Source: Histomonas meleagridis
Taxonomy: Eukaryota; Parabasalia; Tritrichomonadida; Dientamoebidae
Direction: 5' to 3'
DNA: 64,000 nt
NCBI GenBank assembly: GCA_020186115.1
Contig: WSYJ01000180.1
Coordinates: 124,001 to 188,000 of the forward strand
Both the position numbers and the translations under genes were made by a program. Of the stretch, positions 33,908 to 38,874 are shown in pieces. Within the stretch, counting starts at the first letter, position 1; each line of letters begins with the position of its first letter. The notes beneath the pieces were generated by a model. That model ran no database searches. It was not told the DNA's origin and saw only the letters and a list, made by a program, of their open reading frames with translations.

Positions 33908-35102
33908 TTATAGCCAATTGTCTTCATCTTCTTGAACAATATCTTCAACTAAAGTATTCACTTCCTCCATTTGTTTTGTACTTGATGTAGTTGTATCCTT
34001 AAATTGTAATTTCGATGTCGATTTTACTTTTTTTGTTATTACTTTTTATTAAGAATATAACAATTCCAACAATTATTAACACAAATGCAATTGCCCCGCA
34101 AATAATTCCAATCATTGCATTAGTTGTAAGTCCATTTGTTTGTAAAATGTTCGTGTGAAACATTGTAATGAAATTTGAATAATAATTATAATATGTCGAA
34201 TACATAATAACTGTGTAATCATAATAAATAAATTCTGTTTCAACATAAGAAAATGTAGAATTAATTATGGACAATGAAAGTGATCTTGTTTGCGTTTCAG
34301 AATAAGTAAATGAATTTGTAATTGTCAATGTATATGCTAACGTATATGAAAATGAAAATGTTAAATCACTTTGATATGATTCAGTGAATGTATTACTTCG
34401 ACTGAATGTGTGTGATGAAGAAAATGAAATTGTTGCAATCGGGATGCAGTTTCCTTCTGCGTTGTCTTTGTAAACACCTAAATTCCCAAATTTACTTCCT
34501 ACGTATGTTGGATATGTGATAACACTTGCTGTAACATTATAAAATGCACTTTCTCCAATACTTGGTTCTGTATATCCATAATAATAAATGCATTCAAGTG
34601 AATTACAATTACCAAATGCTGAACTTCCAATTTCTCTTATTCCAGACCCAAGTGTTAATATTTTTAAATTAAAACATGATGAAAATGCTGAAACACCAAT
34701 TGAAGTGACTGAATTTGGAATTGTAATGCTGTCGATGGATGAACACAATGAAAATGATGAACCACCAATTCTTGTAACATTTCCCCCAAATATAATCCTT
34801 TTTAAATTAGAACATGACGAAAACACAGAACCATCAATATATGATATAGAATTACCAAAATTAACTGAAAGAACTAATGGCCATCCTGAAAATGCACCAC
34901 CTGGAATCGAATAAATTCCTTCACTAATGTTTATAAATTTCGTGATGTGTTTATATTGATCAATTTGTTCAAAATCATTTAAATTTGTTATTATTAATGT
35001 TGAGTTATTATCATATAATATTTGAAAAGAATTTATGAAAAATATAAAAAAAATTAAAATATTTTTTTGTTTTTTCTTTTCGCATGTTTTCAATTTGTTC
35101 AT
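33908..35102 (-). CDS. BspA-like leucine-rich repeat membrane protein, tail frame uncertain
   Basis: Best copy of the local BspA family. I start at 35102 (MNKLKTCEKKKQKN followed by a hydrophobic signal segment); the open frame extends about 163 residues further upstream, but that part has no LRR and no counterpart in the sister copy. After the signal come five to six TpLRR repeats, a Ser/Thr-rich spacer (SFSSSHTFSRSNTFTESY), a Tyr-rich stretch, and a transmembrane helix (IGIICGAIAFVLIIVGIVIFL). The frame stops at 33999 (DIEITI). One base removed from the A-run near 34030 would continue to an acidic tail (VEDIVQEDEDNWL) ending at 33908, the usual style of such tails. The family is thought to act at the cell surface. 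Confidence 0.7.
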
Positions 35103-35545
35103 TAAAAGTTTAATTTCAAAAAATAATAAAAATCCCAAAATAAAAATGTTATACATCAGAACTTGAATAACTTTAATTAATTTGAACATTTTCTTTATGA
35201 AAATATTATTCATTGAAAATGCTAAATGTGCTTTTAATGAAAAATGATTAAGTACTAAAGAAAAGAATTTGAAACAATGTTTAACATATGAAATTGGTAA
35301 TTCTAATAAAGGGAAATGCCAATGACATTTTTCTGCACTGATGTTAAATGGATAGGATTCATTATCTTTGAGAATAATAAAATTTGTTACTTTAATGGAT
35401 ACATTCGCTTTTTCATGGGATGAGGATGTAAAGTATATGTCCTCTTTGGATTTCGAAGTAAGGCAAGTGTAATGTTTGAAAGTTTGAGGAGTAGATAATT
35501 GATCATCAAAAATATTTAAACCTGAATTTTGTGGAGAGATTTGTA

Positions 35546-35668
35546 ATGAGCGAAAGAAATGCATGGGGAAAGCCAAAAAGAAATAACACATTCGTGAGAA
35601 AACTTGAGAAACTTATTGATAAATCAGTCAAAAACGATACAGAGAGCTTCAACCGCTTCGCCTTTTAG
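35546..35668 (+). CDS. Short basic ORF, unknown
   Basis: 40-residue open frame starting MSERNAWGKPKRNNTFVRKL and ending FNRFAF, with protein-like composition but no identifiable domain. It overlaps, antisense, the doubtful upstream extension of the BspA frame. It may be the N-terminal scrap of a gene lost in this decayed zone. Confidence 0.25.
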   Translation: MSERNAWGKPKRNNTFVRKLEKLIDKSVKNDTESFNRFAF

Positions 35669-36352: not shown

Positions 36353-37500
36353 CTATAGAAGTATACATTGTTCTTTTTGAGGAGCGATCTTCATCAAAGC
36401 CCCGACTGCAACGATATTTTGTTTATTGTTCTCAACTATAGGTTCTTTACCAAAATAATCTTTGATCATTTCCTTAGCATTTGGGATATTCCAGCACTTC
36501 CCAACAAGTATTATGTGATCGACATGTTTTCTCGACATATGCGCTTTGTCAAGTGTTGTTCCAATCAATTTTATAATTTCACCAAACAAATCTTTGTTAA
36601 TTCGTATAAATTCGTCTCTCGTTAATACATATTGTTTTTTCCCTATAAATATTTTCGTATTTTGCATTTCTAAAAGTTCGAACTTTGCTTCTTCACAACA
36701 TTTCATAAATGTGTACGCCTCTTTGGTATTAAGCTTTATGTTTTCATTATGCGTTTTCTTGATAACATATTCCATAACATTTTGATCAATTTGTTTTCCA
36801 CTTAAATTTGTATCACTTTCGTTTGATTCAAAATCAAACGTTTGGAATTGGGATTTAACGAGGGAAACACATAATGATTCACTTTCAAAATCTATAACTA
36901 AATTGTTGAACCATTCACCATCACCTGGTGAGATAGCTCTTGGTGTTGGCAACATTTCCGCGTGTTTTGGTTTCATCATAATAGTTTCTGCTATAATTTG
37001 GAATGCATCTTTAACGTTATAACCATCTTTAGCAGATGTTTCAATGAAAGAAAACTCATGCTTATCAGCGAATTCTTGCCCTTCTTCGGTGGTAACAACA
37101 CGCTTGTCTTGAAGATCAACCTTATTTCCAACAAGAAGTATACCTCTTGAAGCTAAATCATCAATTTCTTCCATCCATCCATCTAAATTGTGAAATGATT
37201 CCATGTTGGTGACATCGTATACAAAGATAATGCCATCACGTCCGCGGGCTAAATTTTTAATCAATAATCTGAATTTTTCATCTCCAGAAATATCAAATAC
37301 ATTCAAATTTACAGTCGTTCCTTCTATCTCAATTTTCTTGATATAGCCATCAATTCCAATTGTAGCAAAATATTTATCCTCAAAAACGTTTTCTGTAAAA
37401 CGTTTTAAAATGCAGCTTTTACCAGTCTTTGAATCTCCGAGGAGAATAACCTCTGATGTAAGAATTAAAATATACTTAATTCGTAAGTGGTGCTTGACAT
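36353..37500 (-). CDS. Rab GTPase fused to an Hsp70 ATPase lobe II, CaaX-terminated, one 23-nt intron
   Basis: Two exons: 37500-37476 and 37452-36353. Without splicing the start has no sense. With the 23-nt intron removed the protein begins MSSTTYELKVILLGDSKTGK, a textbook Rab start, and is 374 residues. Rab motifs: P-loop GDSKTGKS 14-21, switch II FDISGDE 61-67 (catalytic Gln replaced by Asp66), GNKVD 117-121, SAK 148-150. In place of the hypervariable tail, residues 190-365 follow Hsp70 nucleotide-binding lobe II: NNLVIDF, a LSGKQIDQNVMEYVIKKT helix, CEEAKFELLE, TRDEFIRINKDLF, and VDHIILVGKCWNIPNAKEM (Hsp70: VLVGGSTRIP), ending VAVGALM. The phosphate loop GGGTFD is lost (DFESESLCV), so ATP binding is unlikely. 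The C-terminus CILL is a prenylation box, so the fusion can still sit on membranes. Confidence 0.85.
37453..37475 (-). other. 23-nt GT-AG intron
   Basis: On the minus strand it starts GTATAT and ends TTACATCAG. Removing it joins GAATTAA to AGGTTATT, giving Y-E-L-K-V-I-L-L-G-D-S, the conserved Rab beta-1 strand into the P-loop, and the whole 1125-nt message is in frame. Very short introns with a fused branch/acceptor end are known in trichomonads. The exact frame repair makes chance unlikely. Confidence 0.85.
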
Positions 37501-37725
37501 TCAAATATAAAATGTTAAAAACAATTTGTGTATTGTGAATTAACCCCAAAAATGTCGAAATGGCATTTTTTGGGAATGTTGAAAAGTAAACGATAACTCA
37601 TCAAAAATCATTAAATCGAATTAAAACTATAATTTTCATGGGATGGAATATTGGATAATATTTTTATTCAAAAAAAGCTTTATAAAACATAACAGTTTTT
37701 ACTAAATTTTTCATATTGTATTGTT

Positions 37726-38874
37726 TTAATTCATAGTAAGAAGTAATTCTTTGTTAACTGATGTTGATCTGCTCATTGATTTTGGTGATTCATGAGTAGA
37801 TTTATCATCATCAGCAGGGTTGACATTTATTATCGGGTTCGAATAGCTCCTTGCAAACTTTCTTAGCCCTGGAGAACCATCCACTTGCAAACACATCGTT
37901 GCTTGTGGCATGATGTCGCAATCGAAGTCTTCTTGAAGACAATAAAAAGAAATTTCGTTGTTCCTAAATGTGATTACTCCACATTTGTTATTAAATGTCA
38001 TACAGTATTCACTACTTGAGAATAGTGTAACGCCTTCAAAGTTGGCAAATGGACGGAACCCAGAAAATGTACATTGATGGCCTCGAATTAATAATTGGAG
38101 ATTATTATTTCGAAGAAAAGTATCAACAGTATCCGGCCCAAATACTTGCCCAGAGCCTCTATGGTTAAGATGGAACCCTTGGATACCATCATTGGGATCT
38201 GACCAAACAAGATCAGATATCATGGAATTTTGAAGATAATTATAAATTGGTAATGAGAGATCTCGAAGCGTTTGGACATTGTTAAGAAGAGGTGAAAGAC
38301 CTCCGTGGACACAAAAAATTTTATTTTGGATGATTGCGGCTAAAGGGAACCAACTAAATACTTGTTGGAATAGTAACCATAGTTCTTCAGAATTGTACTT
38401 GGTCATGATCTCTTCATAAAAACCATAAGCTCTGTTGATGTGTGAGAATTCATGATTTCCACGGATGAGAAATACTTTTCCTGGATATAGGCAAACAAAT
38501 GCTAAAACTAAACTGACAACAGCGATTGATTCTTGACCTCTGTCAACAAAATCACCAAGAAATAGATATTTTGTTTCAGGAGGAACACCAAAAATGTGAA
38601 ATATTTTAATTAAATCTTTTATGTTTCCATGGAGATCACCAACGATTGCAAATGATCCATCTATTTCAATCAATGAAGATTTAGTATTCTGAAGTTCTTC
38701 AATTGATTGGTTACATAATCCTTCAAGAATATTTATATCAAACTCCGGTACTTCAATGCTTTTTGAAGTAAAGTCGAAATCTTTATCGAAGTATTGCAAG
38801 AATGGTTCCAGGATCTGTTGAGAAGGGTTCTTTCCAATCATTGGCAAATTCCTTGGTTGGATATATCCATTCAA
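37726..38874 (-). CDS. Divergent PP1-like serine/threonine phosphatase
   Basis: Second PPP-family enzyme of the window, 382 residues. It has GDLHG at 79-83, GDFVDRG at 107-113, RGNHEF at 138-143, VHGG, DLVWSDPND and IRGHQCTFSGF, so the metal and catalytic residues are complete and closer to PP1 than those of the 17.8-kb enzyme. The N-terminal 75 residues and the Ser/Thr-rich C-terminus (ESPKSMSRSTSVNKELLL) are extensions of unknown role; the latter looks phosphorylatable. TCATTCAATTTTGA before the ATG is initiator-like, and the stop lies in TAAA. The two enzymes are not a tandem pair and differ throughout. Confidence 0.92.
   Translation of the reverse strand: MNGYIQPRNLPMIGKNPSQQILEPFLQYFDKDFDFTSKSIEVPEFDINILEGLCNQSIEELQNTKSSLIEIDGSFAIVGDLHGNIKDLIKIFHIFGVPPETKYLFLGDFVDRGQESIAVVSLVLAFVCLYPGKVFLIRGNHEFSHINRAYGFYEEIMTKYNSEELWLLFQQVFSWFPLAAIIQNKIFCVHGGLSPLLNNVQTLRDLSLPIYNYLQNSMISDLVWSDPNDGIQGFHLNHRGSGQVFGPDTVDTFLRNNNLQLLIRGHQCTFSGFRPFANFEGVTLFSSSEYCMTFNNKCGVITFRNNEISFYCLQEDFDCDIMPQATMCLQVDGSPGLRKFARSYSNPIINVNPADDDKSTHESPKSMSRSTSVNKELLLTMN

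Follow-up and report, generated by a model that had tools for sequence, protein, structure and literature searches.

A Rab1-derived G domain joined in frame to an Hsp70 lobe II module in Histomonas meleagridis

Among the known systems closest to the combination reported here are the RJL/RBJ GTPases, in which a Rab-like domain is combined with a DnaJ domain. In Hsp70s themselves, nucleotide-exchange factors and J-proteins can dock on the surface of lobe II. On the GTPase side, the switch face of Rabs is also read by REP and GDI, and a CaaX box that ends in leucine fits GGTase-I. Here we describe a gene of the turkey parasite Histomonas meleagridis, found on the minus strand of a 64,000-nucleotide stretch of DNA (hereafter the window), that spans positions 37500-36353 in two exons and encodes 374 residues.

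The hybrid is unusual. Literature searches for a Rab-Hsp70 fusion found none, and no protein carrying PF00071 and PF00012 together appeared in either the full-length search of the protein database (best 120 of 469 matches) or the alignment search (best 120 of 2000), the candidates in both cases being those that share short words with the query. The view of the preliminary description that such a join is undescribed is therefore not contradicted by the literature or by the matches listed. The part of an H. meleagridis proteome study available to us names Rab11 and cytosolic Hsp70 only (PMC6250841). Since the best 120 matches of each search include the H. meleagridis proteins P0121 and P0126 but not the fusion protein itself, the public gene set may model this gene differently. 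The Hsp70 half on its own gave no match in the protein database at E<=0.001 among 263 candidates. Within the genome, a similarity search, which scores the best candidates only, returned 112 matches: the fusion gene, three Hsp70-only loci and 108 other Rab rows (one of them the second piece of a listed gene), with no frame among these 108 longer than 257 residues.

Gene model and domain content

The preliminary description had placed the gene at 36353..37500, which is correct once a 23-nt intron (37475-37453) is removed; the mechanical ORF, 36353-37549 on the minus strand, opens upstream of the likely true start, an ATG at 37500. Read in this way, the Rab-Hsp70 fusion is confirmed, at the level of sequence, as a real and single reading frame with the following features:

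37476..37500, minus strand: exon 1, encoding MSSTTYEL and the first base of Lys9
37453..37475, minus strand: 23-nt putative spliceosomal intron, GTATATTTTAATTCTTACATCAG
36353..37452, minus strand: exon 2, running to the stop codon TAG at 36355-36353
36977..37450, minus strand: Rab1-derived G domain, residues 10-167
37280..37297, minus strand: altered switch II, FDISGD (W61F, A64S, Q66D)
36920..36967, minus strand: linker, residues 171-186, predicted to be disordered; similarity to the Hsp70-like locus L010 (see below) starts at about residue 172
36389..36913, minus strand: lobe II module of an Hsp70 nucleotide-binding domain (NBD), its ATP site dismantled, residues 189-363
36356..36367, minus strand: CaaX box CILL at the C-terminus, residues 371-374, read from the sequence, in a tail predicted to be disordered

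The intron occurs in three exact copies in the 43.3-Mb genome, one in the fusion gene and the others in two Rab1 paralogues, L011 and L012 (on C52 and C93); the reversed pattern, used as a control, has none. Another Rab, L021, carries an intron-like stretch of 23 nt in the same place, at about position 1479 of its locus (GTATACTTTAATTCTAACATCAG, two base differences). Splicing is supported by P0122 and P0124, predicted proteins from other organisms, which match the spliced reading of both paralogues, MSSTDFDLLFKVLLIGD. The public protein RABD1 (P0121), which matches L012, starts at MEVLLIGD and is missing exon 1; removal of the intron gives MSSTDFDLLFKVLLIGD. With 23 nt and GT..AG ends, the fusion-gene intron fits the type B size class of parabasalids, described for Trichomonas, in the part of the source consulted, as 23-28 nt long with a CTAA branch-site motif (PMC12316389); the corresponding letters are CTTAC in the fusion intron and CTAAC in that of L021.

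Both halves are recognised by Pfam. The Ras match (E=2.6e-50) lies above the curated cut-off, and the HSP70 match to the C-terminal half, the profile check that had been proposed for it, reaches E=4.1e-21 and 75.3 bits against a curated cut-off of 20.6 (the scan used the unspliced ORF, whose residues 216-386 correspond to 193-363 of the spliced protein). This match covers profile positions 189-371 of 599, that is lobe II alone, and neither lobe I, said from the outset to be missing, nor the substrate-binding domain has a match in the fusion protein. The scan of the fusion ORF lists 12 families with E values up to 1, and DnaJ is not one of them. The predicted structure, likewise proposed as a check, consists of two folded domains, a Rab-like fold and a lobe II fold, with a disordered linker (pLDDT <50 at model residues 162-177) and tail; because the pTM is 0.50, the relative placement of the two domains is unreliable. 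A Foldseek search of the whole model against the PDB returned Rabs, plus a DnaK at rank 46. The neighbouring genes in the window, at 33999-35591 and 37726-38874 (both minus strand), match a BspA-type leucine-rich-repeat protein and a calcineurin-like phosphoesterase in Pfam.

Ancestry and divergence of the Rab half

The Rab half is descended from a Rab1 duplicate, as its intron is copied exactly only in the two Rab1 paralogues. In the tree it groups with L011, L012 and P0122 at 96/96, on a long branch (1.45) whose placement is flagged as less sure; the shared intron agrees with this placement within Rab1. Identity to the two paralogues is 57-58%. All 13 tested residues of the GTP pocket (G1-G5), including the switch I threonine, are unchanged relative to L011, compared with changes at 71 of 168 aligned residues in the Rab half as a whole (P=5.5e-4, for a set picked after the alignment had been seen).

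The switch regions are another matter. Both FDISGDE in switch II and the terminal CILL are as first reported, and the catalytic glutamine that the former replaces with aspartate (Q66D) is present in 17 of 17 other Rab loci examined. The effector triad F-W-Y is replaced in its entirety (F44G, W61F and Y76L), while the same 17 loci keep the phenylalanine in 16 cases, the tryptophan in 17 and the tyrosine in 16. Eight of 35 near-invariant Rab positions are changed, every one of them within residues 44-76, although the Rab loci L027 and L028 depart at 7/37 and 7/38 such positions, so the count alone does not single out the fusion protein; nor are changes significantly enriched across region 33-79 (24/47, P=0.10). 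Because all three residues of the triad have been replaced, a loss on which the preliminary description is silent, the product is probably not a working organelle-identity Rab.

The C-terminus has diverged as well. A prenylation box does follow the Hsp70 part, as had been noted, but it is a CaaX box of the GGTase-I type and not a Rab-type tail: CILL has leucine at X, whereas the closest paralogues, L011 and L012, end in CGC and CSC, so that the targeting class appears to have changed. Among the 17 other Rab loci, 15 have at least two cysteines in the last four residues, L015 and L028 have one, and none ends in a CaaX box. CaaX-like ends were counted in 3 of 126 mechanical ORFs (>=150 aa, from the window and the loci, fusion included), a frequency at which a chance origin of CILL is not dismissible by itself. 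The enzymes for such a route seem to be encoded in the genome, where six of ten prenyltransferase matches were examined: L064 is GGTase-I beta-like (best PDB match E=7.2e-53), L062 and L063 (C42, C70) are RabGGTase beta-like, and L065-L067 (C86, C55, C1) are farnesyltransferase beta-like. ICMT-family matches lie at three places. With three farnesyltransferase-beta-like and two RabGGTase-beta-like genes, the prenyltransferase subunits appear to be multiplied in this organism.

Origin of the Hsp70 half

The nucleotide-binding motifs of lobe II have been lost: GGGTFD reads ESESLC and GGS reads GKC, in agreement with the preliminary description. Five of the 17 residues that we take, from Hsc70, to form the ATP site in lobe II (located by motif) are kept, compared with 8 to 17 in 18 other rows, a range that includes the reference row L042 (17). 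With the ATP site lost, lobe II could at most serve for binding, which supports the proposal that it is not an ATPase.

Among the best candidates scored, the Hsp70 half is closest to the second lobe II unit of L010, on C84 (59% identity), which it joins in the tree at 100/100 and which likewise keeps 5/17 of the ATP-site residues. L010 (C84:1043850-1047428; locus 3204-1441, minus strand) is an Hsp70-like gene whose lobe II is interrupted by an in-frame TAG; no GTPase was found at the locus. The second, tandem unit lies downstream of this TAG in the same frame, and such a duplicated lobe is itself unusual. The relative nearest to the Hsp70 half is a degenerate lobe II unit and not a working chaperone. 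Conserved Hsp70 sites are changed less often than sites overall (3/27 vs 52/143, P=0.0015, with the cut-off for conserved sites, 9/12, picked after the alignment had been seen); a stricter cut-off of 11/12 leaves 19 columns, of which 4 are altered in the fusion and 6 in the second unit of L010. Thirteen Hsp70 genes, each with a 652-aa open frame and with near-equal profile scores, are scattered over different contigs of the genome.

A proposed role and its alternatives

Two features of the gene are evident from these comparisons: a duplicated Rab1 gene, together with its 23-nt intron, has been joined in frame to an Hsp70 lobe II module, and the resulting frame has kept the GTP pocket, lost the catalytic glutamine and the F-W-Y triad, and exchanged the double-cysteine end of Rabs for CILL. 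The reading we favour, to which we give about an even chance, is that this chimeric gene encodes a GTP-binding, effector-blind Rab remnant that holds an ATP-dead lobe II docking module on a membrane. The protein would be made, bind GTP and, given Q66D, hydrolyse it slowly; classical Rab effectors would no longer recognise it, and GGTase-I would lipidate it with no need for the Rab escort protein. Losing the switch face and acquiring a CaaX box form a coherent pair of changes, since that face is also recognised by REP and GDI. The protein would then have left the classical Rab cycle while retaining GTP binding, and the membrane-held lobe II could offer its surface as an ATP-independent docking or decoy site.

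The strongest competitor, less probable but to be taken seriously, is that we are looking at a young chimeric gene under relaxed constraint, without a selected function and on its way to becoming a pseudogene. Decay stays the main rival because omega on the Rab-half branch is not below 1: codon models give 0.67, which does not differ from 1 (P=0.21), and place its relatives at about 0.02. An alternative topology fits better by 4.3 log units, with omega at the search bound of about 20 (P=0.10 vs 1); as neither topology yields a value that differs significantly from 1, we do not claim positive selection on the Rab half. The Hsp-half branch has an omega of 0.39, not clearly below 1 (P=0.09); its differences are not significantly unequal across codon positions (53/47/70, P=0.08). 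Nor are the amino-acid replacements in this half milder than random ones (mean BLOSUM62 -0.24 vs -0.28). Loss of the catalytic and effector residues and of the ATP site, the in-frame TAG that lies upstream of the L010 unit nearest to the Hsp70 half, and the lack of an orthologue among the protein matches listed (best 120 of 469 and best 120 of 2000) would all suit a decaying gene.

Against this, the 374 codons contain neither a stop nor a frameshift, although the Rab half differs from L011 at 136/504 bases. In neutral simulations, a stop-free Rab half arose with P=0.001 under the observed base-change spectrum and 0.009 under a flat one (0.03 with half of the differences on its branch), and a stop-free Hsp half with P=0.002 (0.03 with half). 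The untouched pocket and the mostly preserved conserved Hsp70 sites also argue against decay, as do the unequal Rab-half differences by codon position (56/27/53, P=0.004). Pairwise omega of the Rab half is 0.57 against L011 (P=0.04) and 0.23 against L012 (P=6e-8), but both values partly reflect how strongly the paralogues are constrained; between the Hsp half and L010 it is 0.35 (different from 1, P=6e-5). We conclude that selection probably kept the frame open while the gene diverged, but that it acts loosely or in a changed way on the Rab surface; some of the divergence may be older than the fusion. A pseudogene identified by plain inspection, with no stop and no frameshift to point to, is not our leading view.

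An explanation close to that of the preliminary description, in which the protein is a working Rab-type switch with lobe II as a built-in effector or chaperone arm, would accommodate the intact G1-G5 residues (including the switch I threonine), the Rab-like fold, the terminal lipid box and the comparable departures of L027 and L028 at near-invariant positions. We nonetheless judge it improbable, given the joint occurrence of F44G, W61F, Y76L and Q66D, the confinement of all eight near-invariant changes to residues 44-76, and the disappearance of the Rab-type tail. It is highly unlikely that two separate products are made, by a transcript end between the halves or an internal start, with no fusion protein: a single uninterrupted frame crosses the junction, and there is no spacer between the halves, because the similarity to L010 starts at about residue 172 and the Rab match stops at about 167. 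An assembly chimera can practically be set aside, for although the H. meleagridis genome has large, repetitive gene families, the best other locus for either half is 57-59% identical and none exceeds 59% among the best candidates scored, so that no known locus could supply either half, and the published assembly, according to the part of its report available to us, joined Nanopore and Illumina reads (PMC8529796).

Returning to the membrane-held docking module, its possible partners are represented by 32 J-domain matches in the genome, 29 of them over the cut-off. A docking role of lobe II for Hsp70 cofactors would extend the use of its surface in Hsp70s, and a more specific version, in which the protein is a GTPase-anchored chaperone docking platform whose ATP-dead lobe II captures exchange factors or J-proteins at the membrane, strikes us as rather doubtful; if it were true, nucleotide state would control the recruitment of chaperone cofactors and not vesicle tethering. 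Should the protein be made, it would represent a Rab that still binds GTP after departing from the system of classical effectors and RabGGTase, and an Hsp70 lobe that serves as a stand-alone module. The locus also offers a traceable birth of a chimeric protein, since the genome still contains relatives of both parents, the common intron and a degenerate lobe II module.

How far the fusion has moved from known systems can be judged from each of its parts. With Rab1/Ypt1 (L011, L012) it has in common the fold, the tested G1-G5 residues, the identical 23-nt intron and 57-58% identity, and it differs in Q66D, in F44G/W61F/Y76L, in the extra domain and in the missing double-cysteine tail. CaaX-type Ras and Rho GTPases share the terminal box, but the fusion is derived from Rab1 and its box is separated from the G domain by an Hsp70 lobe. 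Compared with DnaK lobe II alone (PDB 5oow), the module has lost the phosphate and adenosine motifs and is fused behind a GTPase, without lobe I or the substrate-binding domain. The tandem lobe II gene L010 has a second unit that is 59% identical and equally poor in ATP-site residues (5/17); unlike in the fusion, lobe II there follows the Hsp70 N-terminal part, and the first ORF stops at the in-frame TAG. The RJL/RBJ GTPases, finally, share the theme of a small GTPase linked to part of the Hsp70 chaperone machinery, with the difference that they carry a J domain, whereas in the fusion no J domain was matched and a lobe of Hsp70 itself is present.
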